From NCBI GenBank assembly GCA_034696485.1, contig JAQIWT010000112.1, positions 1 through 34,429 on the forward strand: DNA of 34,429 bases, read 5' to 3'. Position 1 is the first letter of the stretch, and each line of letters begins with the position of its first letter. Below, one piece after another: positions 398-31,890 of the stretch. A model generated the notes under the pieces. The model saw nothing but the letters and a program-made list of their open reading frames with translations. It did not search any database and was not told the DNA's origin. The position numbers were made by a program, and so were the translations under genes. The stretch comes from Isohypsibius dastychi. Its lineage: Eukaryota; Tardigrada; Eutardigrada; Parachela; Isohypsibiidae.

Positions 398-406
398 GAA
401 AGGTTG
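398..406. repeat. 9-bp direct repeat, left copy of probable target duplication
   Basis: GAAAGGTTG lies immediately outside the left terminus (GGCTATTGC) of the first foldback element. The identical 9 bp in the same orientation lies immediately outside the right terminus (GCAATAGCC) of the second foldback element at 11278-11286. Direct orientation excludes it being part of the inverted terminus. Confidence 0.7.
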
Positions 407-1321
407 GGCTATTGCTTTAACTCAGAACTCGGAACTCGGAATTCGGAACTCGGAACTCGGAATTCGGAACTCGGAACTCGGAATTCGGAACTCGGAACTC
501 GGAATCCGGAACACGGAACTCGGAATTCGGAACTCGGAACTCGGAATTAGGAATTCGGAATTCAGAACTCGGAACTCGGAACTCGGAATCCGGAACACGG
601 AACTCAGAACTCGGAACTCGGAATTTGAAAACAAATTCAGAACTCGAACTATAAACGCGAAATTCATATTGGGGAATTTGAAATTTGAATTTTGTAATTT
701 GACTTCGCCAGTCACAGCTACAGGTCAAGGGCTTATTCGGTACTAGGACTAGCTTGTTTTAGTTACCATCAGGTACACAAATTTTTTTCTTAACATATCC
801 TCTTCTGAACTTATTCTGACCGCGGCATTAGCAGCATTTCAACAGATCTGTCACTATGATGAGCAACGCTATTTTGAGGCCAGGAATTTTCACTGTCTTG
901 AAATGGAACAAATGCATGTGAGAAATTCCAGCGTTGTGGACTGCATTTTCAAGATATTTTAATCAAAGTACCCGCGTTGGAAATACTAACGTTCTGGAAA
1001 CAAGTTGAATTTGTCGAACTCTTCGCGGTCAAAATAAGATTGGAAAAGGATATTAAGAAAAGGATTTTTTAGTAACAAAAACAAGCCAGTATCGAAATAG
1101 CCCTCTACCTGCAGCTGTGACTGGCGGGGTTCAATTACGAACTTCAAATTTCAAATTGCATGATCCAAATTTCAAGTTTATTGTTTCGAGTTCTGAATTT
1201 GTTTTCGAATTCCGAATTCCAAATTCCGAGTTCCGAATTCCGAGTTCCGAGATCCGAGTTCCGAATTCCGAGTTCCGAGTTCCGAATCCCGAGTTCCGAG
1301 TTCTGAATTAAAGCAATAGCC
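407..1321. mobile_element. Foldback-type DNA element, copy 1 (915 bp)
   Basis: The termini are inverted: GGCTATTGCTTTAACTCAG at the left, and GAATTAAAGCAATAGCC at the right. Inside each end is an array of the heptamers GGAACTC/GGAATTC (about 420-635), mirrored as GAGTTCC/GAATTCC (about 1188-1310). Beyond the arrays the arms still pair: CCAGTCACAGCTACAGG near 708 matches the complement of CCTGCAGCTGTGACTGG near 1108, and the segment around 820 (CTGACCGCGGCATTAGCAGC) resembles the other element. Nearly the whole element is one long imperfect inverted repeat with a small loop. No transposase is encoded, so it would be non-autonomous. A second copy of almost identical length lies at 10365-11277. 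Drosophila FB elements have this architecture; homology to FB is not claimed. Confidence 0.75.
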
Positions 1322-2770
1322 ACATTTCTGTTTGGAAAGGCCATTTCAGTGAACCAGGGCAGATAGCGCATAAGACCATGCGTACCATGACCGCTGATTT
1401 TTTCGGCAGACTTCGCATTCAGGTTCGGCGAAATCGTATGATGTCTGACATTCTGACAACTTATTTTATATCGAGATATTAGTCTCTAACTTAATGAAGA
1501 GCATCAAATACTTGGCTAGATCATACTATTTTTTTCCGGGTAACCAGTGAACAAGCCGAGTTTTCCCAGGTGTGTTCAGCACAGCACTGTTTGAGTTGCA
1601 TTGTTCAGTATCTTTTTTTCAGTATGAGATTATGCTGAACTTCTGGACCACTGAAGCGTTCCACTGAGAACTTCACAAAAAATATTTAAACCATTTTTAA
1701 TGTTGTATTGTACTGTATGTGAGAAAAGATCACTTGGGCCTAAATTGACGCATTGACCTTGATCGTTTCAGTGACGTATCAGACGAATAACCTCTGTTTT
1801 CATTCTTGCTTGATCAGATACGGACTGACTTACACGGAAGATCGAAAAAGGATTGGTTTGATGCTAGCTGGGCGAATGAAATGTTGCGCTTATCAACCTT
1901 TGTTCGCTATTTTTACCAAGATAGGGTGCTTTCGAGAACTCTCGCTTGTTTGCATTTGAAGAAATGGAAGTTACTTTGCTTATGGAATTAATCCTAGTTG
2001 TTTAACTTACGGAATGATGACTGACCTATGATACCAATCACACTTGAATCAAGAACCAAATCAACAAAGAGACCGATGCTGTAAGAGACGCGAGTTAAAT
2101 CGGTGTGATGATGGCTGGTATGTGGTTGCCATTTTGGTCAATAATATTACAGAAGTAGCTTTCCTTCAGCTTTCCCTCGGTAGGTATATAACTTCCTGAA
2201 CGGGAACCAATTGAAGATTCATGCTGGCCTTAGTACTGTGTACTCATCAAGACTGAGCGTTTCAGGGTCAGACCAAAGCACCACAATTATTGATACGGCT
2301 GTAATGATATGTAATGATGACAGAATTTGCGGCAGAGAGTTTTTATGATTGCAGGGTCATGGTGTGAGAAATGGAAATATTTTATGAATCTCGATCCGCT
2401 CCTGATTGACTAGCTTTTTTCGTTGGCATACCACGATCTTGTTTGTGTGGCAGATGGAGCTCCACACCAAAGTGACACTTCTGATATCTGCGAAATGAGT
2501 CAGATTAGCCTTTCTTTGTCAAACTGTCTTATCTTATCACACGCGCATTCAATGTCACGAACTTGCAGTTGCAGTCACAACTCACAATCATATCGCGGCC
2601 TGAATAAACTTCCGGAGTGTGCAATTTATTGCTGTGGAGAAGGTTGTTCAAATCGGACTCAGACGTCGAGTACCTTAGTTATCGTGTGAGTTAGTTTCAA
2701 GCTTACTCTTGATCGTTGCTGTTGCGTTTATTGACTGAAGTCTATCTCAGCTGAGGTATAAACTTTTACC
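1322..2770. other. Intergenic; upstream region of the ankyrin/RING gene
   Basis: I see no supported gene in this 1.45 kb. Short open frames occur around 1753-1991 and 2423-2689 but lack recognisable domains, paired splice sites or homology to the rest of the window. The promoter of the downstream gene is presumably here, but no distinct element could be identified. Confidence 0.4.
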
Positions 2771-4979
2771 ATGGAACAAGCGAATACACAGGTCTTTATA
2801 GACGCTTTTCGTGGCAATGTGGATGGCCTGAAAAAAGCTGTAACTCAACTTGGATTTGATGTGAACATGAAAGGAGCCATCAACTTGAACGGAGACATCA
2901 AAGGAAATATCACCATTTTGTGGGCAGCTTGTGTTGGAGGACAGCTGAAGATGGTCCAGTATTTATTAACAACATTTCGTCCAGATCTAGAAATTGTTGA
3001 TGAACGGAATTGTGGTCTGCTCTGGGCTTCGTGCTTTGGTGGTAATTTAGATGTAGTCAAGCTAATATCTTCCAAAAACACTGTTTAGGCATCCAAATGG
3101 ATGACCCCATTGTCTGCTGCATGTCCCGGAGGCGGTCATGTTGATGTGGTTGCTTATCTAATAAGCAAAGGCCATGATGTCAATGCTCGGCTTGTATGTA
3201 ATCAAACCGCACTCCATATTGCATCTGCGAAAGGGCAGCTGAAAATCGTCGGAATGCTCATAAAAGCCGGAGCCAAAGAGCTGAAAAATGACTACGGTTT
3301 AACACCTATCGAGACTGCCGCAGCATATGGGCAAGCAACTTGTGTCGAAGCCTTCATCAAGCTTCTACCCCATAAACATTCTGCAGAATTTCTCAAACAG
3401 ATGAAGCTTCTTGTTGCTGCTGGAAAATTTCTAGAAGAAGGCGACGACTCAAACCCCCTTTTCCTTAACGCTGTCGAAGAGCTCGAGAAAAATCACGGGG
3501 ATCTTGGTAGTAACTATCCGCCTGCTGCACTGCTTAATGCAGCTCACACCTGTTCAATGAAGCCTGGGAAGATGAGAAACACGAAGCTGGCTTTGTTGAT
3601 CTTTCAGCAAGTTCTCGGTATGGGACATCCGGGGACTATATCTGCATTCCGTTCGTACATGCAAGTGAAAAAACCTGACTGCAACAATGAGTGGCTATTC
3701 TTATTCGATTCACTCTCGAAAGAACTGAAGGTAAGAAGAATTTCACTGGATCTGAGAGTTGTGTTGCAAAGGTGCCTAATGTTTTCAGCCGCTGGATAAT
3801 CAACTGATTTATTCGCTGGAAAGATACATGACCCGGGTTGGTACTATCCTTTCTTTTTACGTGGAAAAGTCGATGTCCGACATTCTGAACATTCTACTTG
3901 GTGAATTGATCCGTGGGTATCGGGCCATTCGGCCGCCTCGACGTACATTTGGTGTTTCGTACACGTACACGTGGTATTTCGACCAATGTCCCTACATGTT
4001 GACATCGAACTTCGACGACCTCCTCCTTCTGTTTCTTCGGCTCATGCGAAATGTCTGCAAGTCTGCTAATCGCATGCTTGAAGGTGAACTGCTATCCCCT
4101 TGTGTTTGGATGGCGCAAAATTCTATCAGAGATTCAAAAGAGCGGGTATTCATTCAGTTGTGGCTGACAGATGCGTTGGAAGAAACCGACCATAGCCTGT
4201 TCATTGGTTTACTAAACCTAGTCTCGAAAATCGGCAAGGACGACTTATTTGCCTCTCAAGACTGTCAAGGTCGGACTGTTGTGGACGAAGCAATCTGCTT
4301 AATACACGTCAATGCCGAGATCATCAGCCATCTACTTAAACATTCTTCAGTGCAGCCAAAGGTCACCAAGCAGCTGTTCATAACTATGGAAAAACTGAAG
4401 AATGGCAACCATGCTGATGTTGCGGTGGAGCTCAGAAAGCGGGTTCCCATAACCGCCGAAAGTGTCCCTCTGTTGATTGCCATCACCGACGACATCACCT
4501 CCCTGATTGAATTTGCTGGAACGGTCACCGATAAGTCGATACTCTCACATGTTGCTAATGCATGCCTGGAGAGGAACAAGCTGGCAGAATCTATAAAGCT
4601 GTATGAGCAATGTAAAGATTTCAGTCACCATTCTGCAATCTTCGAGAAAGCTTTGAAGGATAACAGTTTTACACAATGGGCATTAGTGGCCAAGTATCTC
4701 ACTTCTGCGCTCAAGGTTTCAAGAGATCCAGAAGTCGAGAAGGAGCTTGTTGCGGCGAAGCGCATGGCTGCGTTTGTGAGGAACGAGGATTCAATGCCAG
4801 TACCATCCAGTCAAAGCATGGAGGATAACCTATGCGATTTATGTTTCGATCGGGAGAAAGATGCCGTCTTCGTACCTTGTGGCCACATGGGCTGTTGCAT
4901 GAGTTGTAGTCAGAAAGTCAAAATTTGTCCATTTTGTTCAACAGTTATCACTAACAGACAGCGAATCTTCCGGACGTAA
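2771..4979 (+). CDS. FEM-1-like ankyrin-repeat protein with C-terminal RING finger (internal TAG)
   Basis: Two exons (2771-3730 and 3789-4979) flank a 58-bp phase-0 intron running from GTAAGA to TTTTCAG; joined they give 717 codons. Residues about 10-205 are ankyrin repeats, with TPLSAAC, TALHIAS and HVDVVAYLI cores. Residues about 265-330 (VLGMGHPGTISAFRSY, then LDNQLIYSLERYM) resemble the helical region after the ankyrins in FEM-1 proteins. The last 50 residues form a complete C3HC4 RING: CDLC, CGHMGCCMSC, CPFC. FEM-1 proteins are substrate receptors of cullin-2 E3 ligases and normally have no RING, so a self-contained ubiquitin ligase is inferred. Codon 106 (3086-3088) is an in-frame TAG within an ankyrin repeat whose pattern continues on both sides. 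This may be a disabling mutation, a sequence error, or a 36-nt intron (3053-3088, in frame). The start ATG has ACC before it, and AATAAA follows 94 bp after the stop. Confidence 0.8.
3086..3088 (+). other. In-frame TAG inside the ankyrin/RING gene
   Basis: The frame is identical before and after this codon, and the ankyrin periodicity runs straight through it: GNLDVVKLISSKNTV before, ASKWMTPLSAAC after. A single base change from AAG or CAG would explain it. The only in-frame GT-AG alternative is a 36-bp intron from 3053, shorter than any other intron in the window, and it would delete part of an ankyrin helix. Confidence 0.75.
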
Positions 4980-5072
4980 ATCCCTGACCTCCTGAAAGTC
5001 TTACTTTTTTTTCTATCAGTTTTGATGTTCTACTGGCCAAGAATATTTTTATGTTTTACGGTAAATTACGAG

Positions 5073-5078
5073 AATAAA
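5073..5078 (+). terminator. Polyadenylation signal AATAAA of the ankyrin/RING gene
   Basis: AATAAA lies 94 bp downstream of the TAA stop on the same strand and is the first such hexamer after the gene. Confidence 0.5.
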
Positions 5079-5339
5079 GTAAAAAATGCGTACACAGCAA
5101 TGCGACATGTTCTTCGGAAGCACAAGTACTATAGACTGCTGAATGGTGGTCACTTTTGAAAACTCAAAAAAAAGGCAATCACCATATTTTATCGGCGCCA
5201 AGCATTAATACCGACTTTGGCATCTTGCCAGCTCTTTCTTCCATAAGTCAACATACAGTCTCGCTCTCAAAAGTCATAATACAAGCTTTTGTTTGGCGAG
5301 TACAGTGAACCAAAGTCAATCAAAAAGAGAAACTGTTCA

Positions 5340-5898
5340 TCATTTCCATCCGCATCCAGCACGATGAGAGGCTCCGCATCCACAGCTCCCAAAACGACCA
5401 TGTCCATTTCCAAATGATCCACAGTGTTGGCCGGGTCCATGATCACAAGTAGCTTTTCCAGCTCCTTGAGGATGACCATGTCTATGCTTATGTTCCACAT
5501 CCAGAACGACCGTAATTTCCGGTACAAGTTTGAGGTAAGGTAACATCACGATTTCTGAAAAAGACCGTATTCATTTCCGTTTGAAGTTCTGAAATAGCGT
5601 GGATCTGGTATGAGAGGGCTTACCTTGAAAATTCGGGTTCCTGCTTAGTAAAAAAAATCAGAAGAATGAATCAGGAATGCTCCGCTGACAGAGACTTTTA
5701 ATACAAATTTTGTTTTTCGCATGGGATTGCATTGTCAATATCGGTGGCAAGAAAAAAGACTGCGTTCCGATAACACTCTGTGGTAAAAATCAAGATTAGA
5801 AATTTCGATTCAGCGATCATATCGCCCCAGGCGATGCTTGGTACACTATGAAATAAAATGAAGAGAATGCGCAGTAAATGCAGGATTGTACTCATCAT
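5340..5898 (-). CDS. Predicted small secreted Gly/His/Cys-rich peptide (3 exons, one 17-nt microexon)
   Basis: Exon 1 (5898-5777) begins MMSTILHLLRILFILFHS, a clear signal peptide with likely cleavage near SIAWG. A 17-nt microexon (5640-5624) sits between CTAAGCAG and GTAAGC. Exon 3 (5554-5340) follows TTTTTCAG. The introns are 136 and 69 bp, and the exons total 354 nt, exactly 118 codons, without internal stops. The C-terminal 50 residues are rich in Gly and His with five Cys (HKHRHGHPQGAGKATC, then GHGRFGSCGCG), resembling antimicrobial or metal-binding secreted peptides in composition only. The exon 1 donor (GTGTTA) is weak, so that junction is uncertain. A different frame of exon 3 also reads a Gly/Cys-containing stretch (TCTGNYGRSGCGT) before a stop, so a past frameshift is possible. 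No family is assigned. Confidence 0.4.
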
Positions 5899-6806
5899 AA
5901 TTTTATAAAAGCACTCACAGTCAAACAGTTCATATGTTTGTTCATATATCACGCAAAAAAGCAGATGAAACGCTGACAAATCCTCAGCCTCCTTTTATCC
6001 CGGTGTCAAATGTTCCGGGATGGCACAGTAGCAAAACCATAGATCTCACATTACAATATTATTTAGGCTTTGTGAGTTCTCGAAAATCATTTCATGAGAT
6101 GAATATATTAGGGAGAGGCTAATCGGACAAGCTTTTTAAACCAAATGTTATTCCCACAACCGTTTAAAAAACTATCTGTTATTCCCACAGCCTTTTATCA
6201 ATTTTTCTAAACAACCTTTTGTTATTGCCAGAACTTTTTCTTCCCTTTTTTGTCCGCTCCAGCACTCGTAATCACGCGCCTCATTATCCAGGTATTTTTT
6301 ACGCAAACAATGCTAACTTTTCCACGTCTCAGTTTTCAAATCTGAATTTTTGGGTTGCCGAGATTTGCTTGTCAGCTCGTGTTTCAACATATCACAAGAT
6401 ACATATCTGGATCGAACAAGTACACTTTTTAGCGTCATGAATGTCATGATTTCAATGAAAATGAGCTGCTGCAGCTGGATTGAGTGCATCTCTCTTTCAT
6501 TCAGAAAAGCACATCGAACAAGATTCTGGGTGGAGGACACCTATACTCAGCGCTCATACAAATACACTCAACCGTAACAAACTTAAACGTCCAGCTCTGC
6601 GGATCTGTGCATCCAGTTTCACTAATAGTACCACACACCCATGATGCCAAACTGTCTTGTTTATCCAACTCTCATCAAATTGACTTGCAAAATCCAGGAT
6701 GTTCCAAAAGGTGGACAAATGGACTAAAAATTGATAACTAGGCGTTAGAAAAAGATAAAAGAGGTACTCCAACGATTCACGAACATGGGGGATCCATGAA
6801 AACTAA
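5899..6806. other. Intergenic, no gene recognised
   Basis: This 0.9 kb holds only short overlapping open frames on both strands with no domain, signal peptide or credible splice structure. It lies between the Gly/His-rich peptide gene and the Ig fragment, both on the minus strand. Confidence 0.4.
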
Positions 6807-7351
6807 TCAACGTCGGTATCTATCGGTCACTACACCACGATATCCACACCCAGTAACCCCGAGACCAATGCATATGGTGGCCTTCCACAACGCCGTCACT
6901 TTCGCGCAAAACCATTTCCCTATATCACGGTCGGTCAATAAAAGCTCGGTTCCTCTTTTCTGCTTACTGAGGAACACACCAACTCCTTTGTTATCCGCAT
7001 CCGTGATGTAGATACACGGCCTTGTAAATAAAGACTTAATAACCCCGAGCAAGTTAAAAACAGGGCCCTTTACCTTTAATATCCAAATTGGGTGGTTCAG
7101 GCTTCAGGTCAATAGGGAAAGTCCACTCGATGTTTCAATTATGAATGACATCACCTTTCAGACAGATGAGCCTCTTGTTGGTCAACATGAGATTATATCG
7201 TCTATCTCTTGAAGTGATCAAATGTGAGATATTATTACCAGTCTTGGCATATTCTCCATTCTTCAGAGTGTTGAAAATGAGCCCTCCTTCTGTCTGACCG
7301 CAGTTGTAGGGATGACTAATGCAGAGACTCGGATCAATTCGTACGTCATAG
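6807..7351 (-). pseudogene. Decayed immunoglobulin-domain gene fragment
   Basis: Reading leftward from about 7351, one frame gives FYDVRIDPSLCISHPYNC, then GEYAKTGNNISHLITSRD, then NKRLICLKGDVIHN, an in-frame TGA, and IEWTFPIDLKPEPPNLDIK. A GTAAAG donor (7073) and an ACAAG acceptor bound a 53-bp intron (7021-7073). The next block (7020-6807) gives RPCIYITDADNKGVGVFL and ends in TDRDIGKWFCAKVT. Together this is an Ig fold: B-strand Cys, C-strand Trp and the D-x-G-x-W-x-C motif. The TGA and a one-base phase mismatch at the intron argue for a pseudogene. It is not visibly a copy of the Ig gene at 17230, so it probably represents another Ig family member. Confidence 0.55.
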
Positions 7352-7631
7352 AAGGGAGTTTATGTGATCAAGACTTCTAGTAATCGCAAAAAGAAACTGA
7401 CAGCAAGCTCGAGATGTGCAATAATATCTCAGGAACGTTGTGACTTTGTCTGCTTGATTGATGCACTTCCACTAAGCGAGAGCAGTGAGTCTCGCTCGAA
7501 TTTGGTCCGATCTTATCTGAGATGCTTTTTCCACATTTTGATTGTCTGTGCTGTGTCGCAGCTGTTTCCAATTCTATTTTATGAAAAATACTAACAGTTT
7601 TCCCACAGAACTCCGGACAGGTGAAGTCAAA

Positions 7632-7637
7632 TTTATT
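7632..7637 (-). terminator. Possible polyadenylation signal of the apple/LRR gene
   Basis: TTTATT on the plus strand reads AATAAA on the minus strand, about 90 bp beyond the stop codon of the gene at 7728-9355. Confidence 0.35.
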
Positions 7638-7727
7638 CAAAGTGTTTCTGGCTTTATCAAAATCATTTTGTGTAGGATGAACGAAGAAGATTGTGATAAT
7701 CGATATTGAAATGCGATATTGAGATGT

Positions 7728-9355
7728 CTAGTTTTCTGAATTCAGTGAAAACTCCGTTTGATTATCAAGACCTTTCAGATCGTCTTTTTGACAGTCCACA
7801 GCGCCGTAAATCATTCGCCTCGACCAAATAAAATTAACAATACCCGCTTCTGGATATACCTCTCCTTGACTTCGTGGCTGAATGAGGTGTGGGTTCTTGG
7901 TCAGATAAGTGCGGAACCACGAATATTCACGGCTGCAATGGAGTTTCCATATATGCGACCGATTATCATCATCAAGCGGCCACTGGATAAGCCAATCAAG
8001 GATCAGGGTTTTTAAGTGAGGCAATCCTTCGAGAACTCCCGCCTCAAAGTCAAGTATTGTTGAATAACGGAATTCCAACACACGGAGTTGAGGAAAGTTG
8101 TTCATGCTTCCTTTTCGAACAGTGACATTTCTACTGTCAAAAAACGACAGATGCATCAGATTTGGAAAATGTAGGGAAGACAACGTCGCGAAGTCGAATC
8201 CTCGCGTGCGCTCGATATTAAAACGGATAACTCTGTCCGAGATTGGTTCAAATAAAGCTGGCTCCAATCTGAGTTTTCCATCGATCTGCACTTGAATTGG
8301 GCTACGTTCTTCCAAGTACCGGCCTGCTTTTTCGATATGCTTGCCGATATCAACATCTGATGCGGAACTACTGCATATTATCCAAGTGCAGTCCCGCATA
8401 TAGCAGCCTCCCGTTTTCCATGACATGCATTCCTCGTCGGACCATAGACTATTCCGTATGAAATCCTTCTTCCAGTTGCTGAAAAAAGTAATTGTACCTT
8501 GATCAGCAATCGGTTTCTGTCGAAATTTGGATCGTTGGCTATCTTGTCTTTTCAGTTGACATGACTCCAGCTCGACGCTGAAGATGGCTGCTTCACATTG
8601 CGGATGAAGGAGACAAAGTTTGTGACATAGTAACTCTGTCATTTCTCCATTTAGAGATCTTTCAATATCTTCATATTCAAGCTCAATCAAGCCACCGCCT
8701 TCTCGAAATCCTGGCAGCCTAGCCAATTGTTTCCGAACTGGACTGAAGATCGCAGAATAATAACTTTGAACGAATTTGATGTCTGCAGTTCCGTTGTAGG
8801 CGGTGCAAATCTGCCCACGGTTGTCGTAGTCAACAACCCGACATTCATTCTTACACAGCTCCATGCACACTTTCATATCCGAGGCGTCTTTTTGCCAAAG
8901 ACGGTTCCTGAGGCTTGCTACTATACGAAGGTCATACAGGAGAGTAGAGTTGACGAACGTCGTGTTAGTTGTCCAAGGGAACGTATCGATTTCAAGCGAA
9001 TTTTTGTGCGCTGGCCTGATGGGGATCGGTGGAGGGCAGCCATTTTCAGAATCGGAACATTCGTCGCATATTCCACCTGAAAAGAGGGGAAACTCCTTTG
9101 GGAGAATAACAATGGCTATTACAACGGCAATACACTCGAGTGCAATGGTTACATTCGATCATAGTTCATTCAAAGACGGATAAGGTAGACGCAGTATCTG
9201 TTCTACTTGGACTGATGTTTGTCCTGTAAAGTTTATCAAAAAAAGCTGATCCTAGGTCAGATGGAGGTCAATCCGGCGAAGAAAGAAAAAACTCACCTGT
9301 TGCTGCATAGACAATAATGAGAAATAAACCAACCAAAGCTCTGTATCCAATCATC
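7728..9355 (-). CDS. Secreted apple/PAN-like and leucine-rich-repeat protein
   Basis: The main exon (9076-7728) follows a TTTTCAG acceptor and stays open for about 449 residues. It starts GICDECSDSENGCPPP. Two Cys-rich apple/PAN-like segments follow: one around MKVCMELCKNECRV, the other around LCHKLCLLHPQCEAAIF to SCQLKR. Then come about three leucine-rich repeats (LMHLSFFDSRN, LRVLEFRYSTILDFEAGVL, LKTLILDWL) and an LRR C-terminal cap-like stretch (LHCSREYSWFRTYLTKNP). An upstream exon (9355-9297) encodes a signal peptide, MIGYRALVGLFLIIVYAA, with a GTGAGT donor. Joining the two directly leaves the frame off by one, so a small exon is probably missing from the 220-bp gap; for example, a 17-nt segment after TTTACAG near 9228 would restore phase. 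No transmembrane segment is seen. Binding of an extracellular ligand is inferred from the domains only. Confidence 0.7.
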
Positions 9356-10364
9356 ACTGCGCAGGTCAATAAGAAGGTAAATAAGAAGAATTTCTGTCAA
9401 CAAATTTACTTCTGCTTCTTCAAATGCGAAACAGGCGAGAGTTCTCGAAATCACACTATCAAGATCAAAATTGAGAGTACAAAGGTTGATGAGCGCAACA
9501 TTTCATTCGCCCAGCGAACGTCAAATTCAACCTCTTCACGTTCTTCCGTTCCATGTATGTCAGTCCATATCTGATCAAGCAGGAATGAAATCAGATGTTA
9601 TTCGTCGAATATGTCATTGAAACTGATTCAAGGTCAATGCGTTAATTCAGACCAGAGCGGTCTTTCCTCACCTCAGACCACACCAGTGTAGTATCAGCAG
9701 CACTACATGAGCACCGCTGTTATCCAGTAGTAATACTTATAAACCTTATTCTTATTTATTTAGTACCACATTATGAGATTCTAGCAGTAGCTGCTTTATG
9801 AGAAATTACAACATCTAATAGTGTTTAATGCTCGCATTAAAATATGTTAATTAGAAGCGAGCAAAGGAAGGGACAACCGTTTGCGACAGGACACCAATCG
9901 TCGACTGGCCACTCCTATAGGAATCGCCTGGAGCAAACTCGTTCGCTTCTATCCTGTCCTGCTCTTTCCTTTCTCACTTCATTATTTAGTCTTCACTTTG
10001 CTCGCTCGATGTTTACTGCGCTTGCTCAAGCAAGTTTACGAATTGTGTGAAGAAGTGAAGGCTATTGTTATCCCGACCGGATTGCGCTATTGTTCTGGCA
10101 AATTCGGGGAATCTGCATGTTATCGATCTGCCTGTTCTCTATCTGTCGACACGGTTCTGACCTTAATAGCTCTCCCAACTGCTTTGTGCGATATTGGCCG
10201 AACGATTTATATCTGATATCCATTATTAAATATTGGACTACGATCATCACTACCCGATTACGGAGTAATATAATGGCACCCATTAGGAACGCTCGACTGA
10301 ATCGCGGTGGCAGGAACGCGGCCACACAGCCACCGAGAACCAATAACCCATGACGAGCCGCAAA
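9356..10364. other. Intergenic, no gene recognised
   Basis: I see no supported gene. It contains the presumed promoter of the minus-strand apple/LRR gene and A/T-rich sequence. Open frames around 9844-10353 have no domain or splice support. Confidence 0.4.
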
Positions 10365-11277
10365 GGATGTAGCTTTAACTCAGAACTCGGAACTCGGAAT
10401 TCGGAAGCCGGAACTCGGAATTCGGAACTCGGAACTCGGAATTCGGAATTCGGAATTCGGAAGCCGGAACTCAAAACTCGAAAATCGGAACTCTGAAATC
10501 GGAACTCAGAATTTCGAAATTTAAAACTCCAAATACGTTATTCAACGATGAAGGTCGCAACCGCAAGTCAGGGTCGAAGTGATGGTTTGTTTTGTAACCT
10601 ATCAATCTCGTTATTCTTGATCTCATTCTGACCATAGCAGTAGCAACATCATTACGAATTAGATTCTATCGTGAGTTTCTATCTCTGTACGAATTCGTGT
10701 TTAATTATTCAGCACAATGCGAAGTGACACTTTTGCATATAGGAACGATATGTTCGACCTGTCAAACACATCACTGTTTTTGAGGGTTGTACTTCGGGTT
10801 TTGCCTGAATACACCTTAAAAATGTAATCAAAAACGCTCGATTTCAAGTCAAAAACTTTTGTCTAGTTTCATGTGAGTGGAAACTTTAGGCCACTAAAAC
10901 AGCGTCGCTCACGATAATGACTAATCTGTTACGATGTTGCTACTGCCGCGGTCAAAATGAAATTGAAAAAAACGATCCGTTGGTTACAAAAAAACAAACT
11001 GGTACTGGAACAGGCCCTGACCTGCGGTTGTGACTTGCGAGGTTAAAACTATGGTTTTTAAAATTCAAATTTCTTGATTCGCATTTTATATTCCTGTTTC
11101 AAGTTCCAAGTCCGAGTTTCAAATTTCGGGTTCCGAGTTCCAAAGTCCGAGTTCCGAATTCCGAGTTCTGAATTCCAAGTTCCGAGTTCCGAATTCCGAG
11201 TTCCGAGTTCCGAGTTCCGAATTCTGAGTTCCGAGTTCCGAATTCCGAGTTCCGAGTTCTGAGTTAAAGCAATAGCC
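10365..11277. mobile_element. Foldback-type DNA element, copy 2 (913 bp)
   Basis: This is the same family as 407-1321. The left end reads GGATGTAGCTTTAACTCAG, a diverged terminus; the right end reads GAGTTAAAGCAATAGCC, a match to copy 1. GGAACTC/GGAATTC heptamers run from about 10380 to 10515 and their complements from about 11090 to 11265. Inner arms pair: CCGCAAGTCAGG near 10559 against CCTGACCTGCGG near 11017, and CATAGCAGTAGCAACATC near 10632 against GATGTTGCTACTGCCGCGG near 10933. Inner sequence (GACCGCGGCAGTAGC on the complement) is shared with copy 1. It carries no coding capacity. The immediate right flank is GAAAGGTTG, matching the left flank of copy 1. Confidence 0.75.
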
Positions 11278-11286
11278 GAAAGGTTG
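11278..11286. repeat. 9-bp direct repeat, right copy of probable target duplication
   Basis: GAAAGGTTG directly abuts the right terminus GCAATAGCC of the second foldback. It is identical to 398-406 outside the left terminus of the first foldback. The inner flanks of the two elements (ACATTTCTG and AGCCGCAAA) match neither it nor each other. Confidence 0.7.
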
Positions 11287-12584
11287 GCGGAAACGTTGCA
11301 GGGAATATTGCCGAATGAGGAGAGCCTCACTAAACGGTTCATTTAGGCATGTTCAGTTGCATGTAACCAGATCGTATAAGTCAATTACGTATCAGTCGTA
11401 TCTGTGTCTTGTAAGGCACTTCTGTAAGCCACCTATGGTGACTACCTATTGCTGTGGCGTTCTATGGGGCCCCTATAGGCCAACATGAAGCGATATCACC
11501 AACTTTACCATACTGTAGCTTGGCGACCATGCGGTTCAAACGAAAAGAAAACTATTATTTCATACATTCATTTCATACACACCAATCATATGGCACATGA
11601 AACACGTCCCATGGTCGTCCACTGACCGATGCGTTTCGTACTCTAAACACAATTTTCTGAATCTCACCCTCCCAGCATTGACGCAAGTCTGACCTCATGT
11701 ACCATACAGCAAACACCAGTATATCCCCACATCGAACATCCCGTATACTACTTAGGTAAATCAAACGCACCACAATGCTCGAAACTCATGGGACAACCAA
11801 ATCTTATTTTTTGATAAGATTTCTCTTAACAAAACGTGACCCTCTCAATATGAACACGAACGTTTTCACGAAATTAGTTCTCTGAAAACCTATGAGCCGA
11901 TTGGAATTGTTAGATATAACCTACCATTTGCCAGAACCTTTGGAGCAAAGGGAGGGGGCTGAAGGGGTTAAGGAGTGAACGAAGTGAAGAAGCGAAAGTA
12001 CCAGAGAAACTGAGCCTTGATCAGCACCATAGATGAACTGATTTTCGTAGCATGTGTTACTCGAAACTCTCACACTCTTCATGCGTAGTGGATGTCTCTG
12101 AAATCTAATGGTCGAATGGGAAGCGTGTGATCTGTATACAGATCTGTACCCTAGAATGATGTTTGTTGCTTGATATTTGTGGTCAGACTTTAAACCTGAA
12201 TGATATTCCGTACGAGTCGGGTTGCCATCTGAAATGAACTGTCGGCATTGCATGTCATGTTACCTACTTACCATGTGAAGATGAAAGCCATGAAAAGCAA
12301 ACTTTTCGATAGACACCTGGAATCAACTAAATTGCCCATTGCAAACGTAACCAAGAATAGATTTGTGACGAGAACGGCTCAATCCGCGTCGCAATTTCAG
12401 ATCGACGCCCCTCCCCTTACCGTATCATTCAATGACATAACCGGGCATTTTAAAGTGGAAATCGCCAAAGGCAGCCGCTTTCGAAGTCCCGGCCTGAACC
12501 GTCCTGTTGATAAGTTTGTCAAGCTATCACTTCTCTTTTCAAATGCTCAAGAAATCTCATGAGCCAAGACTTCCGTACGCCGAG
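11287..12584. other. Intergenic, no gene recognised
   Basis: Short frames occur on both strands. The most protein-like is a 94-codon frame at 12281-12562, without a recognised domain. A purine-rich patch (GGAGGGGGCTGAAGGGG) lies near 11951. I could support no gene. Confidence 0.4.
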
Positions 12585-13045
12585 CTCACAAGCAAACCAC
12601 GGGAACCCGATAAATTCAAAAAAATAACTGAAGAGTGCAAATGATAGAGCGTTTTTCACTGATAATTGTCGTACTAATGACTTGGTTGATTTGGGGTGCT
12701 TTAGAAGACAAAAAAGGGAAAGAAGGGACGAAAAACTCATGTATGGGTAGAAACGATTTGCGCAGTGGGGCTTACCAATACGAACACTAATGGGGCTCAC
12801 GCTTTCGCGACTGTACGACTTCGCGCATGCACTTCGAGATAGAAACATTCCAAGTCGTGAACCCCGCCAGTATGTATATGGTATGTACACGTAAGCCCCG
12901 GGTTCTTTCTTCCCTTTTTTGTCCTCCAGATCACCCCAAATCAACCAAGTCATTAGTAAGACAATTATCAGTGAAAAATGCTCTATCATTTGCACTCTTC
13001 AGTTATTTTTTTGAATTTATCAGGTTCCCGTGGTTTGCTTGTCAG
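12585..13045. mobile_element. Inverted-repeat element (MITE-like, about 460 bp)
   Basis: The left arm (about 12585-12733) runs CTCACAAGCAAACCACGGG and on through AAAATAACTGAAGAGTGC and TGATAGAGCGTTTTTCACTG to AAAAAGGGAAAGAAG. The right arm (about 12900-13045) is its near-perfect reverse complement, ending GGTTTGCTTGTCAG. The loop of about 165 bp has no open reading frame of note. Two open frames seen in the arms are mirror images and not genes. No target duplication is obvious at the ends. Confidence 0.7.
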
Positions 13046-13600
13046 CCCAACCCTGTTTTTCGAGAGAGCTTCCTCTTTCCAGTAAGACTAATTATTGTTT
13101 TTATCTTCGACTTCGATACTCGAACCCTTTGATCGTCAGGATCAAGTGAATTAGTGAGGTCAGTTACAGTTACTCAGAGTCACGGATGGTTTACTGTATT
13201 TCGATATCGACGTACAAAAAACGAGTGTTCAGAATTATTGGGTATAAAATCAGATTTCGCCCAGGGCGACAATTTTAATTTTTTCCAGGTCATATCACGG
13301 GCTTTCGGAAACTCCTGCCGATTGCAAAAGAATGCTTCAAATGATGTTTTAAAGATTTTAAATGCAACAACTCTGAACGATCAACGACGACAGGAACTTT
13401 GACCGAAGAAAACACTAAGAACAGCGGTACTCCCGCCAATAACTTGGAGATGAATAGTCTTGATTTAGTCAATCAAGACCGTTACCCCATCTATCTATCA
13501 ACCGGACCCCACAGTCTTGATTGACTACATCAGAACGGTTTAACTCCAAGTTATCGACAGGACGGATTATATAGTCCCGAGCGGCAGGAGGGGGCAAGCT
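13046..13600. other. Non-coding stretch with nested inverted repeats
   Basis: I see no gene. CCAATAACTTGGAG near 13436 pairs with CTCCAAGTTATCG near 13542. Between them lie GTCTTGATTTAGTCAATCAAGAC (self-complementary arms) near 13457 and a further AGTCTTGATTGACTACATC near 13512, suggesting another small palindromic element. Confidence 0.45.
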
Positions 13601-25025: not shown

Positions 25026-25659
25026 GTTGACTTTTACGGCATTGCTGTCCACATCCGCAATTTTGAACAGCTGACTTTTCCACGGGAGGTCGGATGTGCT
25101 TTTGAACTCGTACAAAAGTAAATACCACATTGATTTCTGTCGACAGTTCCCAGATTGAATGCCACCTGAATTGTGTCGTGCCGAGGGACTGAGAGATTAA
25201 GGCCATTCGGAGCTACACATGTGACATCTTTCTCATTGAATGGTGGGATAATGCTTAGAATCACCAATCCGTCACCACCCTCAAGGAAATTGACATCATT
25301 GGTGTTCGGGAAAGGCATCACAACAGCAGAGCTCAACCCGAGAAACAAGAGAGGAAAAAGGTGTTTGGACACCGTTTCCGATATATCCGCATCCTCAAGG
25401 ATGCGCACATATTGTCCCCCTTCATATCATAAGTCTGTTATTACCTTGAGCACGTTGTCGTTTTTAGCTGGAGCTCAGAAAAAAGAGCTAAACTGTACGT
25501 GAAAGAATCCAGAATCTTTTTTTTTCTTTGTAAAAGCACAAGGAAAAAGGTGAGAACATGGAACTAAGTCAACTGGAAAGGTTGAGAGCGCGTCGTGGGC
25601 CGTCATCTTCCTCCAGAAGAATGCCGTCCCCCGCCGCTGACCCTTGCAACCACGTAGAG

Positions 25660-26350: not shown

Positions 26351-26577
26351 TTAAATGGAAATTAATAAATGAAATGATTCAATTGTGGTTAATTCTCTGC
26401 GTGATGTGTTATGAGCGGTATCTTTGTTCTTGTTTATGTTCCTCCTCTTTTGTCTGAAACGGTTTCGAGCCGATGCGCACTTCTGCGCAGTTACGTCCAC
26501 TGTTGTCTACAGCTTTATTTGACGTTCCTGGGCTCATTCGCAGTCAGTCTAAGATTTGCCGGGTTGTACAGTTTTCC
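26351..26577 (+). repeat. Split direct repeat A1
   Basis: Matches A2 (30353-30582) over its whole length from TTAAATGGAAATTAAT to GTACAGTTTTCC, with few substitutions and one 3-bp length difference. It contains the GAGCCGATGCGCACTTCTGC segment in both copies. Confidence 0.92.
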
Positions 26578-26677
26578 AGTTTTGTAAGATTTGTTTTCTC
26601 CGCATTTGTCCGCCTTGACCTTTCCCAATTGTGACATTTAGTCCTTATTGTTATCGTATTATTTCCGAAACATCGTC

Positions 26678-27717
26678 ATGTCTGGCTCTGAATCATCTTC
26701 TCATCCATCAGAGGATTATAATATGGATAACCTATCGGCTGCGGAATCAGACCACCCTATCGCTAACCGAACTCGTCATGCTCATATCCAACCCAATCAG
26801 GCCCATTCTGGAAAAGTTCAAAAGAAGAACAAGAAAAAGCCTGGTCGACCATCCCAGAGCGCTCGAGTTATCGAACTCGAGAAGAAAGTCAAGGAATTAT
26901 CAGCTCGTCTTCCCCCGTCTTCAGGTGAGACTCTGTTCCGCTTGCCTTCCCCGTCCCCTGTCTCTCCTATTTCCGTTGTGCCTGTGTTGTCCCGGATTTC
27001 TGATCGTGGTAGCGTGTTTTCTCGATTGGGTCATCAGGATGTCGGTGGGCACACTTCAGCACCTGGTTTTACGATCTTGTGATCGGACCTACCCGCTGTC
27101 CCTGCCTATCTTCGTCCTGCTCTGGCCACTTTATCCGAGCACGTTGTTCTTGAAGCTTCGCTGCCTGGTAATCGTGCCAATCGCTCTGATCGCGAACGTC
27201 GGTCTAATCGTGGGTCACAATATATCCACGAGCAGATTACCAGCTTCGCCGCTTGGTTTCGTGCTTTTCATGTGTTTTCTCTTTATCGTTCATTTTACCA
27301 TCCCCATATTGCCGTTCCACTACAAAAGTATGCTGAAATCATTGCGGGTTTGGCTGATCCAATTTCCGGATAGCCCAGTCATGTCTCCTTGCCCGCAACG
27401 CAGTGCAGCCAAAGTTCCTCGGTCAACAACAACCAATTATCCGCCGCTGCTGGAAATGTGGTGACCTTTCACATTTCGCATCCCAGTGCCCGCAAATGGA
27501 TCAAGGCCCCAGTCGCCAGCCCTTTCGTCCTCGCCCCGCCTCGAGCGGGGATCCTTGTTTCAAATTCAACTTGGGGAAGTGCAACAGCTACCCCTGTCCC
27601 AACGGGTACACACACAAGTGCCTCAGCTGTGGGAAAGAAACTCATGGTCAAATCAACCACCATGCTTCGAAACCCGGCATCCGTCCCAGCGGGAATCTTG
27701 ACGCCCCTCAAGCCTGA
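26678..27717 (+). pseudogene. Gag-like protein of the YR retrotransposon, interrupted
   Basis: It starts MSGSESSSHPSEDYNMDNL in frame 2, with a basic stretch (KKNKKKPGRPSQ) and a short heptad-like helix. TGA at 27080-27082 interrupts the frame, which then stays open (DLPAVPAYLRPALATL, QYIHEQITSFAAWFRAF) until TAG at 27371-27373. The zinc-knuckle region continues in frame 1 (27403-27717): CWKCGDLSHFASQC is a CCHC knuckle, followed by CFKFNLGKCNSYPC and CLSCGKETH. Both stops can be explained by single C-to-T changes (CGA to TGA, CAG to TAG). A frame change is needed between 27374 and about 27430. The zinc-knuckle frame overlaps the start of the RT frame. It would form the nucleocapsid-like particle if intact. 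Confidence 0.7.
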
Positions 27718-28825
27718 TGGTTTCCGTCAGCTCCTCTCCAACCATCCCGATCCAAGCTTTGTAGATGAAATTGTACATATCTTGAGTTTTGGTGCTAACA
27801 TTGGTTTTGTGGGTCCTCAGCACCCACGGTGTACAGCGAATGCTCGGACTGCTTTTGATAATGCTGATGTTGTTGTTGCATATGTTGCGAAAGAAGTCGA
27901 GTTACGTCATTCTTTTGGTCCATTCTTTTCTCCTCCATTTGAAAACTTTGTCTCAAGCTCGCTTGGTGTCCGCACCAAGAAGAATGGTGGTTTCCGCCTC
28001 ATAATGGATCTTTCGAGGCCATTCGGCGACAGTTTTAACGACTTTATCGATCGCGATTCTTACTCTTTTGCTTATTGTACCATTGATGATGCCGTCAGCT
28101 TAGCCATTAACGCAGGTCGTGGTTGTATCATGGCTAAAATGGACATCAAGCACGCTTACCGCTTGATCCCAGTCCGGCCTGACGACTGGCACCTGCTTGG
28201 CTTCATGGTTGGCGATGAGTACTATTTTGATGTTGTTTTACCGTTCGGGTTGCGGTCTTCCGCCTACCTTTTTTGCCTTTTCTCAGAAGCCTTCAACTGG
28301 ATTCTATGTGATCACACGAAATGCAATGCCATCCTTCACTACGTCGACGACTTTTTCTCCGTCGGTGCCCCGTCCTCTGACCAGTGCAACAACCTCCTTC
28401 AGTCCACCCGCGAGATTGCCCCTATACTTGGAATTCCCTTGGCTGAAGAAAAGACTGAAGGGCCTTCCACAAAGATTACCTTCCTTGGAATCGTCATCGA
28501 TTCAGTGTCGCAAACTGTCAGTCTCCCTCAAGGGAAGCTAAAAGAGCTCCAAGATCTCCTTGTACTCTGGAAGTCAAAGGTCACCTGCACAAGGACTGAA
28601 TTGCAAAGTCATATCGGGAGTCTTCAATTCGCGACAAAGTGCATTGTTTCAGGCCGGTTGTTCACCCGGCGTTTGATCAGTCTTCTTCGCGGTCAGTCTC
28701 ACAAGACAAAGATTGAACTTGATGATGAGTTTCGTCGGATCTCGATTGGTGGCAAGAATTCCTTCCCAAGTGGAACGGAACCTCTTCATTCATCCCGATC
28801 AAGTGTTGGTCTTCTGATGTTTTGA
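27389..28825 (+). CDS. Reverse transcriptase of the YR retrotransposon
   Basis: This frame is open for 478 codons. The first 90 or so codons overlap the zinc-knuckle frame and are probably not real RT. RT-like sequence begins near 27690 (NHPDPSFVDEIVHILSFGA). Recognisable blocks are KKNGGFRLIMDLSRPFG, AKMDIKHAYRLIPVRPDDW (first catalytic Asp), LPFGLRSSAYLFCLFSEAF, and HYVDDFF (YVDD catalytic pair) near 28340, then LGIVID in the connection. From about 28739 the reading passes into another frame, where the WWQEFLPKWNG motif that links RT to RNase H in this order is found, so this frame's last 30 codons are an artefact of a frameshift. Confidence 0.9.
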   Translation: MPATQCSQSSSVNNNQLSAAAGNVVTFHISHPSARKWIKAPVASPFVLAPPRAGILVSNSTWGSATATPVPTGTHTSASAVGKKLMVKSTTMLRNPASVPAGILTPLKPDGFRQLLSNHPDPSFVDEIVHILSFGANIGFVGPQHPRCTANARTAFDNADVVVAYVAKEVELRHSFGPFFSPPFENFVSSSLGVRTKKNGGFRLIMDLSRPFGDSFNDFIDRDSYSFAYCTIDDAVSLAINAGRGCIMAKMDIKHAYRLIPVRPDDWHLLGFMVGDEYYFDVVLPFGLRSSAYLFCLFSEAFNWILCDHTKCNAILHYVDDFFSVGAPSSDQCNNLLQSTREIAPILGIPLAEEKTEGPSTKITFLGIVIDSVSQTVSLPQGKLKELQDLLVLWKSKVTCTRTELQSHIGSLQFATKCIVSGRLFTRRLISLLRGQSHKTKIELDDEFRRISIGGKNSFPSGTEPLHSSRSSVGLLMF

Positions 28826-29289
28826 AACTTTACACCGATGCAGCTGCTGCAGTTGGTTTTGCTGGCTTCTTTGGTGGTCGATGGTTTCAAGGCAAATGGC
28901 CCTCTGAAATCGTGTTTTCGTCTCAGTGCATCGAGTTGCTTAAATTATTTCCGATTTTCGCTGCGTGTATGTTGTGGTGTACCAATCTGTCTGGCAAACG
29001 CGTGCTTTTCCTTTGCGATAATCTCGGCTTGGTGCAAGCTTGGGCAAAATTGGGTTCCACTAACCGCGGGGTTCTCCACCTAATGCGGGCGATTGTTGCA
29101 ATCGCATCTGAGTTCAATTTCGCGCTCAACTTGACTCACATTGCTGGCTGTACTAACACCATTGCTGACGCCTTATCACGCTTTCAGATGGCGAGATTCC
29201 ATCAACTCACTCCAACTGCCGACGCGAATCCAACTCCTTTACCCCCCAAGTTTTACGAAGTCCTAGACGAGGCCATGAAGAGCGTCTGA
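28739..29289 (+). CDS. RNase H domain of the YR retrotransposon (frame-shifted from RT)
   Basis: From about 28739 frame 1 carries DLDWWQEFLPKWNG, then the RNase H core: Asp in KLYTDAAAA, Glu in CIELLKLF, Asp in FLCDNLGLVQAW, Asp in TIADALSRFQ, which are the four expected acidic residues. It ends with EAMKSV and a TGA. A one-base indel near 28739 separates it from RT. Whether this is a mutation of this copy or programmed frameshifting is not decidable here; the site has no obvious slippery heptamer, so mutation is favoured. Confidence 0.85.
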
Positions 29290-30227
29290 CTTCAGCAGCC
29301 AAAGAACTCTTGTCAGATCATATTTCGGCTTCCACTCGTAAAACGTATCGATCAGGAATTCGCCAGTTTCGTCCGTTTTGTCTGCAAAATTCCGTCCCAT
29401 CACTCCCTGCGTCTTCGGTCTCGGTGGTCAATTTCATCGCGAGTCTCCGTCCGGATGAAGTGGCCTATTCAACAGCGAAAGTCTACACCGCCGGGATTAA
29501 TTGCCATCATGTTGAACATTTCTTCAGGTCACCAACTCAATCCGCCATTGTTCGTCGCGCCCTGAAAGCCTATCGTCGCCATCTGCCGCAACGGCCAGAT
29601 CAGCGTCGGCCAATTACCACTTCGGTTATGATTCACTTGAAAGCTGCGATACGTGCATCTGATATGTGCCTTTATGATCAACGCTTGCTGTGGTGTGCCT
29701 TCTGCTTCGCGTACTTCGGCTTCCTACGTGTGAGCGAGTTTACTTGTGCTTCTTCCACCGTTTATGATCGCCAAAGAGTGTTACGTTTCTCTGACGTCAC
29801 CCTTGATCAGAGCTCCAACACTCTGGCCATCGGACTTCGCCGGTCAAAAACCGATCCTCACGGGCTGGGACATATGTTTCATCTGGAAGCCACTGGTAAA
29901 TCCGTTTGTCCAGTCACAGCCTTCCACAAGTTCAAACCTGTCCTTCCGTTCCGTTATCCACACCTGTCTCCCAGACCACTCTTCACCCTCTCCACCGGGA
30001 AGTTCCTCACCCGGTCATCTTTCCACTGCTACATGAAGCTGTTTCTTAACGGTGTTCAAGACGCCCATCTTTTCAACTCTCACAGCTTTCGCATTGGCGC
30101 AGCTACCAGCGCTGCCAAGCATGAAGCCTCCCCTTCCGTCATCAAAGCCGCTGGACGTTGGAAAAGTCAGATCTACCAAGGGTACATACGACCCCAAAGC
30201 ACCGTTTTCCAGCCTCGCCTGGTTTAG
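29277..30227 (+). CDS. Tyrosine recombinase (integrase) of the YR retrotransposon
   Basis: The frame is open from before 29250 to TAG at 30225-30227. The likely N-terminal SAM-like domain starts AAKELLSDHISASTRKTY, overlapping the end of the RNase H frame. There is no clear ATG, so it may be made by frameshift or from an unassigned start. The catalytic set is complete: Arg in GFLRVSEFT, Lys in LRRSKTDPHG, His and Arg in HSFRIGAAT, Trp in AGRWKSQ and the nucleophile Tyr in YQGYIR. It would integrate a circular double-stranded DNA copy by site-specific recombination instead of by a DDE integrase. The frame is intact, unlike gag. Confidence 0.92.
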   Translation, partial: EERLTSAAKELLSDHISASTRKTYRSGIRQFRPFCLQNSVPSLPASSVSVVNFIASLRPDEVAYSTAKVYTAGINCHHVEHFFRSPTQSAIVRRALKAYRRHLPQRPDQRRPITTSVMIHLKAAIRASDMCLYDQRLLWCAFCFAYFGFLRVSEFTCASSTVYDRQRVLRFSDVTLDQSSNTLAIGLRRSKTDPHGLGHMFHLEATGKSVCPVTAFHKFKPVLPFRYPHLSPRPLFTLSTGKFLTRSSFHCYMKLFLNGVQDAHLFNSHSFRIGAATSAAKHEASPSVIKAAGRWKSQIYQGYIRPQSTVFQPRLV

Positions 30228-30249
30228 CTTGGAGATTTGGGGGAATTTT

Positions 30250-30356
30250 GGGGGTCTTTGAGTGGTCAGTTTTATGCCTACGCATTTGGCTTTCTGACCT
30301 CTTGGAGCCCCCGAACCGGCAATCCCTTCGGGTTGGTTCCATAAGCACAGAATTAA
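30250..30356 (+). repeat. Split direct repeat B1
   Basis: This 107 bp matches B2 (30630-30736) with a few substitutions, from GGGGGTCTTTGAGTGGTCAG to GTTCCATAAGCACAGAATTAA. Its last bases overlap the start of A2. Confidence 0.92.
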
Positions 30357-30582
30357 ATGGAAATTAATGAATGAAATGATTTAATTGTGGTTAATTCTCT
30401 GCGTGATGTGTTATGAGCGGTATCTTTGTTCTTGTTTATGTTCCCCCTCTTTTGTCTGAAACGGTTTCGAGCCGATGCGCACTTCTGCGCAGTTACGTCC
30501 ACTGTTGTGTACAGCTTCTTTATTTGACGTTCCTGGGCTCATTCGCAGTCAGTCTAAGATTTGCCGGGTTGTACAGTTTTCC
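30353..30582 (+). repeat. Split direct repeat A2
   Basis: Second copy of A1, directly joined to B1. Near-identity to A1 suggests either recent insertion or repair between the repeats. Confidence 0.92.
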
Positions 30583-30629
30583 CCGCCCGGCCCGCCCTGG
30601 ATCATTTCTTGATTTCATTTGTGAATAAA

Positions 30630-30736
30630 GGGGGTCTTTGAGTGGTCAGCTTTATGCCTACGGAACTGGCTTTCTGACCTCTTGGAGCCCCCGAACCGGC
30701 AATCCCTTCGGGTTGGTTCCATAAGCACAGAATTAA
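30630..30736 (+). repeat. Split direct repeat B2, right end of the retrotransposon
   Basis: Second copy of B1. It ends CACAGAATTAA, followed by host-element sequence CAGTTGAG. Confidence 0.92.
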
Positions 30737-31117: not shown

Positions 31118-31890
31118 AACACATTGAAATGGATTTTCCGTTTTCAACTGAAACGCACATCTCCGAAGCCCAGCCCCTTTTAAGGTTCAGTCAAGTGAAC
31201 TGATAGTAAACTGAAAACTTGGAAACTTTTTGATTATCAAGTGCACTGTTCACGGTTTTCAGTTTATTGAGGTGCAATTCTGTTACCAAACCCAAAACCA
31301 CGTTCATATGCTTGTCTCGGGCAACCGATTTTCATTTATCAGAACGTTGTTCGACCGAGTTGCACCGCATGCACAGGAGAAGTTCCCTGTGTCATTCATG
31401 GATAAAGTAAGTGGGCCGTTGTTGATGTCTTTCCGTATCCGTTGCCAGTTGGGAATATCTTTCCATTTGTAGCCAGGATGGTGTTCAAGGATTTGAAACT
31501 TTTTAAGAGCTAAATCGGTTCCTGTGAAGACAGGCTCTTCCGTACACATTCCCGATTCTCGGTAGAAACAATCGAAACTTATCCGTTCGGTGAGGTCAAT
31601 CGTCATGCTAGTGAAAGATATCTTTTGATCGCCTGGAGAATCACTGCTCCGTGTGGTGAGTGAAAGAAGGATATCAGGTCCTCCTAAGAAACTGTGCATT
31701 CGAATTAGGCAGATTGGTAGATGGCCATGTCAAGATCTGCTAGAATTTAGATACTCACTCTTCACCAGAATGGGATGAGGGAGGGAAGTGATGATTCGTG
31801 TACCGTTGTCAAAAGTTTCTGCGCAGGTATGAGCAGTGCCGTTCCACGCTTCAGTTGCGATGAATTCCCTGGTTAGAACTGTCAAGTATA

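Follow-up and report, generated by a model that had tools for sequence, protein, structure and literature searches.

A two-gene block bracketed by two foldback elements in the tardigrade Isohypsibius dastychi, probably moved as a composite transposon

The window analyzed here is the whole of contig JAQIWT010000112.1 (C112) of the tardigrade Isohypsibius dastychi (assembly GCA_034696485.1; 34,429 nucleotides, forward strand). Other C-numbers denote contigs of the same genome, which was searched over 30.4 Mb and 1648 contigs, and the prefix w marks window coordinates. Near the left end of the window, two foldback elements, FB1 and FB2, bracket a 10.9-kb gene-bearing block whose outer ends carry the same 9-bp word. 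An earlier reading made from the letters alone (the sequence-only reading) had counted at least three gene models in the block. Pfam supports two of them: a plus-strand gene with ankyrin repeats and a RING domain, and a minus-strand gene with a PAN domain (PF00024, above cut-off) and leucine-rich repeats (LRR_8, below cut-off). Four further open reading frames (ORFs) of the block were tested and had no Pfam match. The features of the block are as follows.

398–406, plus strand: left copy of the 9-bp target-site duplication GAAAGGTTG, an exact string abutting the FB1 terminus.
407–1321, no strand assigned: FB1, a 915-bp foldback element with both GGCTATTGCTTTAA termini intact and repeats of about 7 bp in its arms.
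1322–1330, plus strand: ACATTTCTG, the inner flank of FB1, which stands uninterrupted behind ...GTCGAG in a copy on C24 and has ACATTTCT as its counterpart in a second C24 copy.
1322–2023, no strand assigned: left part of the block, by sequence match a copy of the region upstream of a PAN gene on C24 (29005–27554).
2762–4979, plus strand: ankyrin-repeat and RING gene (Pfam; paralogs), with a probable intron at 3731–3788 whose splice sites were placed by reading.
7728–9158, minus strand: main ORF of the PAN-domain and leucine-rich-repeat gene (Pfam; paralogs).
10365–11277, no strand assigned: FB2, a 913-bp foldback of a different subtype, with an intact outer terminus and a degenerate inner one (GGATGTAGC).
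11278–11286, plus strand: right copy of the 9-bp target-site duplication GAAAGGTTG, an exact string abutting the FB2 terminus.

The outer edges of the block agree to the base. At the left, GAAAGGTTG (398–406) runs directly into GGCTATTGCTTTAA (407–420); at the right, TTAAAGCAATAGCC (11264–11277) runs directly into GAAAGGTTG (11278–11286), all of these being exact strings. The 9-bp word is in direct orientation at both outer termini, which are intact and face outward. It occurs three times on the plus strand of the window, the third copy being at 25576. Scored over 9 bp, the two outer flanks match at 9/9, the flanks of FB1 alone at 3/9, those of FB2 alone at 1/9 and the two inner flanks at 1/9. 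A target duplication therefore flanks the pair as a whole and neither element alone, as expected of a composite transposon. Base composition gives a probability of 3.7e-6 that one preset site would match exactly over 9 bp. The sequence-only reading had described two 0.9-kb foldbacks of one family, a 9-bp direct repeat at both outer termini, inner flanks that do not match and a low probability of coincidence; each of these statements holds at this resolution, and the last also in the survey of other copies described below.

The length of the duplication was calibrated on other members of the family. Searched genome-wide with at most one mismatch, the terminus pattern GGCTATTGCTTTAA gave 52 matches compared to 18 for a reversed-pattern control, and the ends studied were these matches together with weaker ones in the same loci. 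Fifty-four rows were marked as foldback-like and 49 ends entered an all-pairs comparison; the five left out (on C11, C1151 and C1260, and two on C1336) were either not foldback-like after the terminus or repeated within one element. Twelve single elements were found whose two ends share a contig. Their flanks are on average 0.70 identical at 9 bp, compared to 0.21–0.39 at 4, 5, 6, 7, 8, 10, 11 and 12 bp, making 9 bp the only duplication length with a clear excess. Individual 9-bp scores are 9/9, 8/9 and 7/9 (two elements each), 6/9 (one), 5/9 (three), 4/9 (one) and 3/9 (one); two of the 12 are thus perfect, six reach at least 7/9 and six lie at 3/9–6/9. Mismatched pairings of the same flanks attain 6/9 at most (132 pairings). 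Among all 1176 pairs of the 49 ends, only nine score at least 7/9: six single elements, two pairs that join different contigs, and FB1-left with FB2-right (9/9). The inner flanks of FB1 and FB2 have no partner at 7/9 or better among the 49 ends. The 9-bp repeat behaves as the target-site duplication of the family, and it spans the whole block. The sequence-only reading would have counted duplications of another length at single copies as evidence against itself; single foldbacks were found to make 9-bp duplications, with no other length in clear excess.

The two cross-contig pairs, C1083–C378 and C322–C899, both score 9/9 and were not sought in advance. Because the contigs end in a foldback, face each other and have matching flanks, we take each pair to be the likely halves of one element broken by assembly; in C322–C899, the two ends have repeat units of unequal length. 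Several contigs have a foldback cut by one of their ends (C136, C322, C330, C378, C818, C899 and C1083), as would also be expected if reads had been threaded through foldback repeats and the block belonged elsewhere. A chimera of this kind would need to return to the original locus with a matching duplication, and even then foldbacks would bracket the block. The differing interiors of FB1 and FB2, the lack of any N in the contig and the unpartnered inner flanks also speak against an assembly artifact, which we consider improbable.

The inner edge of FB1 reveals a second origin for the DNA at this end. The segment w1322–1457 is 91% identical to C24:29005–28869, the match starting at the first base after FB1, and in total three matches of 81–91% identity to C24 cover 1322–1835 and 1898–2023. 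On C24, the sequence continues without a foldback, ...TTGACAGTCGAG being followed directly by ACATTTCTG; in the second C24 copy (near 36130), GTCGAG is followed by ACATTTCT. The outer side of FB1 (w181–406) has no second copy in the genome searched. Since the inner flank is continuous and foldback-free on C24 and the outer flank is unique, FB1 stands between DNA of two origins, which is expected if it inserted alone at ACATTTCTG and later moved with the block. ACATTTCTG would then be the old target-site copy that FB1 brought from the donor locus. The C24 copies themselves are paralogs, not the donor. At the other end, the ~220 bases that lead up to FB2 were seen nowhere else in the genome.

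The inner flanks also bear on whether the block was inverted in place by recombination between the two foldbacks, in the manner of Galileo, with an exchange of duplications. Paired palindromic foldbacks favor such an event, and the gene arrangement on C24 differs from that of the block. An inversion predicts, however, that each outer flank is the reverse complement of the other element's inner flank. This fails when GAAAGGTTG is compared to ACATTTCTG and AGCCGCAAA, and after an inversion a match between the two outer flanks would be unexpected. We therefore reject foldback-mediated inversion as scarcely credible.

The arms of FB1 and FB2 are built from ~7-bp GGAACTC/GGAATTC units with spacings of 14 and 21. 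Within each element the arms are 72–87% complementary, so both have the inverted repeats of short tandem units that characterize foldbacks. All foldback ends of the block begin with GGCTATTGC... except the inner end of FB2, where GGATGTAGC takes the place of GGCTATTGC with three changes in nine bases. Judged by their interiors, FB1 and FB2 are different subtypes of one family. FB2 is colinear with C220:249–1161 over nearly its whole length (80% identity), its interior halves being 78% and 87% identical to the matching halves of C220. Over 274 alignment columns, the right half of FB1 shows 95% identity to a half element with which C136 ends, and the left interior of FB1 is 52% like the left half of C220. 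The two halves of C220, a single element elsewhere in the genome, are only 53% alike, which is why we read the unlikeness between the halves of FB2 as a subtype trait.

We propose, with moderate confidence, that 407–11277 is a composite transposon in which FB1, the genes and FB2 moved as a unit, probably by means of a Mutator-like transposase. The sequence-only reading had offered composite transposition and insertion into a resident foldback side by side. Of these two possibilities we favor the former because FB2 matches one other element near end to end, FB1 belongs to a different subtype and each end of the block has a complete foldback. In this scheme, FB1 would have inserted singly between ...GTCGAG and ACATTTCTG, beside the two genes at another locus, with FB2 standing at the other side of those genes. 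A Mutator-like transposase acting in trans would then have paired the outer (left) end of FB1 with the outer (right) end of FB2, perhaps because the inner end of FB2 was already degenerate. The whole of FB1, the genes and FB2, with ~9 kb between the foldbacks, would have entered a GAAAGGTTG target as one unit. In a Pack-TIR or Pack-MULE, the host sequence is enclosed by the arms of a single element; the block has a complete two-armed foldback at each of its ends and does not belong to that class.

Several observations weigh against composite transposition, beginning with the arms. The right interior of FB2 is closer to the left of FB1 (67%) than to the left of FB2 (58%). The left interior of FB1 is barely closer to its own right half (70%) than to the right half of FB2 (67%), and no less close to C378 (72%). 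A plain comparison within and between arms is by itself not decisive and does not favor composite transposition. The affinity between FB2-right and FB1-left is what might be seen if a resident foldback flanked by GAAAGGTTG had suffered a break that was repaired from, or recombined with, a segment of two foldbacks and the genes between them; the duplication would then be that of the resident. The arm tips are 85–94% alike among the four arms in the window, and as sequences the tip arrays do not separate composite transposition from recombination in the tips. Ectopic recombination between foldback-like elements is described for Galileo in PMC2775673. Yet FB2 resembles C220 nearly end to end and FB1-left is unlike C220-left, so that the exchange would be invisible only if it fell within the tips or if the resident was of a type unseen here. 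The donor, moreover, would already have been bracketed by two foldbacks, which adds a step, and among the 49 ends the inner flanks of FB1 and FB2 have no partner of at least 7/9. We regard repair or recombination at a resident foldback as possible, though clearly the less likely course. A crossover in the center of a C220-like resident was considered separately and is a misfit: with FB1-left and FB2-right as one such resident, FB1-left should resemble C220-left, and FB1-left is not of that type, while FB2 follows C220 near end to end.

A further point against composite transposition comes from the degenerate inner terminus of FB2. Read by eye as truncated, with small deletions, it is followed by the flank CAAAGGATG, which is 7/9 identical to GAAAGGTTG. 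This would hint, weakly, at a single insertion of FB2 whose own duplication, CAAAGGATG/GAAAGGTTG, has decayed, the match at the left of FB1 being a coincidence; alternatively, FB1 and FB2 inserted separately and the entire 9-bp match is coincidental. We judge the CAAAGGATG reading weak because it needs more changes (two small deletions and two substitutions versus three terminus substitutions) and because the similarity is partly that of the terminus, GG.T being common to terminus and duplication. Coincidence also has to contend with how rarely a preset place would match exactly by chance, with the 3/9 score of the flanks of FB1, and with the fact that all other pairs at 7/9 or better belong to the same element or to facing contig ends. 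Separate insertions are, in our estimate, very unlikely.

Composite transposition is also weakened by what the genome searches returned. A single copy of the block was seen, and the joined outer flanks, used as a query for an empty site, match the window only. Searches of the 30.4 Mb turned up neither an empty site nor a second allele or donor; two of them scored 40 candidates each, out of 79 and 127. It is for want of an empty site or donor that we infer the transposition, whereas the block as a unit is well supported by its duplication. The searches showed no locus with the same outer flanks and no block either, and neither of the two counter-examples named by the sequence-only reading turned up.

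The evidence on the transposase falls on both sides of the balance. Domains of Mutator-like elements (MULEs) gave 16 matches in the genome, and in the six of these 16 loci that were scanned, no DDE-domain transposase is tied to the termini of the foldback family. One of the six (L090) has a single weak terminus match, with three mismatches and without foldback arms. A candidate coding relative of the family is suggested by the sequence of a 3.4-kb element at C115:30155–33564 (L043), which has the same GGCTATTGC termini and foldback arms and encloses a 226-amino-acid ORF; this ORF matches the SWIM zinc finger at 24.3 bits (cut-off 19.6), and no DDE domain was seen in it. SWIM zinc fingers are common in MULE transposases. 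The MULE domains in the genome and the SWIM-bearing element count in favor of composite transposition. The flanks of this element match at 5/9. A relative of its ORF, 71% identical and with one stop, lies at C493:135–707, where the terminus is represented only by a four-mismatch match inside the coding stretch. The combination of 9-bp duplications and foldback arms recalls Tm1 and FB4, both classed by their authors as MULEs or as close to them, and by analogy would be consistent with a Mutator-like transposase here. Another terminal-inverted-repeat family is represented in the block by a single end at 6100–6242; its copies on C746 and C1492 adjoin MULE matches, the one on C1492 being below cut-off.

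Both cargo genes belong to families with further members in the genome. The ankyrin-RING gene of the block may be decayed, because it contains an in-frame stop (3086–3088) that is absent from four paralogous loci (C1100, C24, C757 and C421). Paralogs of the PAN/leucine-rich-repeat gene occur on C470, C24, C1326, C193, C748, C209 and other contigs. On C24, an ankyrin-RING and a PAN gene lie within ~10 kb of each other, in an arrangement that differs from that of the block. Foldback ends were noticed post hoc at C24:35070–35148, ~1.5 kb from an ankyrin-RING start, and at C421:225–365, ~2.3 kb from ankyrin-RING sequence. A protein search with the RING exon, covering 3798 candidates, returned none at E 0.001 or better. 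That Mutator-type foldbacks of this lineage routinely pair ends from different copies, carry multi-gene blocks and helped to spread the ankyrin-RING and PAN families is a broader idea that we hold to be doubtful.

Across the contig, Pfam domains comprise ankyrin, RING, PAN and EGF, with weak immunoglobulin-like (Ig-like) matches; Rfam, at its gathering threshold, has no match in the window. At the left margin, w1–128 is what the contig start leaves of a repeat family, namely its right end; on several contigs (for example, C51 and C591) this family forms inverted pairs ~610 bp apart. A 463-bp foldback at 12584–13046, with 142-bp arms that are 93% complementary, has copies on other contigs. The segment 17694–18495 recurs in inverted orientation, at 81–88% identity, at 25095–25338 and 31322–31887; these segments have weak Ig-like matches (below cut-off) and are probably a local gene cluster. 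The region 26351–30736, which we take from its layout to be a DIRS-like retroelement, includes a reverse transcriptase (47.6 bits, above cut-off), while its zinc-knuckle, RNase H-like and tyrosine-recombinase matches fall short of the respective cut-offs; its direct repeats pair 26351–26577 with 30353–30582 and 30243–30356 with 30623–30736.

Composite DNA transposons that move intact genes are textbook elements in bacteria. The block described here offers a base-level case, with calibrated duplications and two different foldbacks, and suggests that such foldbacks can move genes outside Drosophila too. It also provides a simple screen for other blocks: outer flanks that match at 9 bp around elements whose own flanks do not.

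Foldback cases with host genes are described from Drosophila in PMC6431247 and PMC8277862. Galileo of Drosophila resembles the foldbacks of the block in its foldback-like arms and in rearrangement between copies; according to the account in PMC2775673, it belongs to the P superfamily and has 7-bp duplications that are exchanged by inversion, an exchange that the block does not show. Like FB1 and FB2, the Mutator/Foldback family Tm1 of Meloidogyne has 9-bp duplications and composite inverted repeats assembled from short tandem units, but its units are 13–15 bp long and its termini are CGGTTAA/CCTACCC, compared to 7-bp units and GGCTATTGC here (PMC3169594). The passages on Tm1 in that paper report a putative Phantom-like transposase and describe no gene block bracketed by two elements. 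Tan et al. (2021, PMC8277862) describe Ssk-FB4, a Pack-TIR of D. melanogaster that resembles the block in carrying a host gene, in a probable MULE-type foldback with 9–10-bp duplications. As presented there, it is an FB4 element that holds one gene and exists in several copies, whereas the block combines two genes with two complete foldbacks that differ in subtype, and was seen once. A further parallel is Ising's TE of D. melanogaster: foldback-bounded giant transposons that move the DNA between their foldbacks, as summarized in a review (PMC6431247) that also cites Lovering et al. 1991. There, as proposed for the block, a segment between two foldback elements moves as a unit. Ising's TE spans hundreds of kb and is cytologically visible; the block measures 10.9 kb, comes from another organism and is known from sequence only. 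Composite transposition by foldbacks is thus already known from Drosophila, and the block of I. dastychi is probably a further case in another animal lineage.

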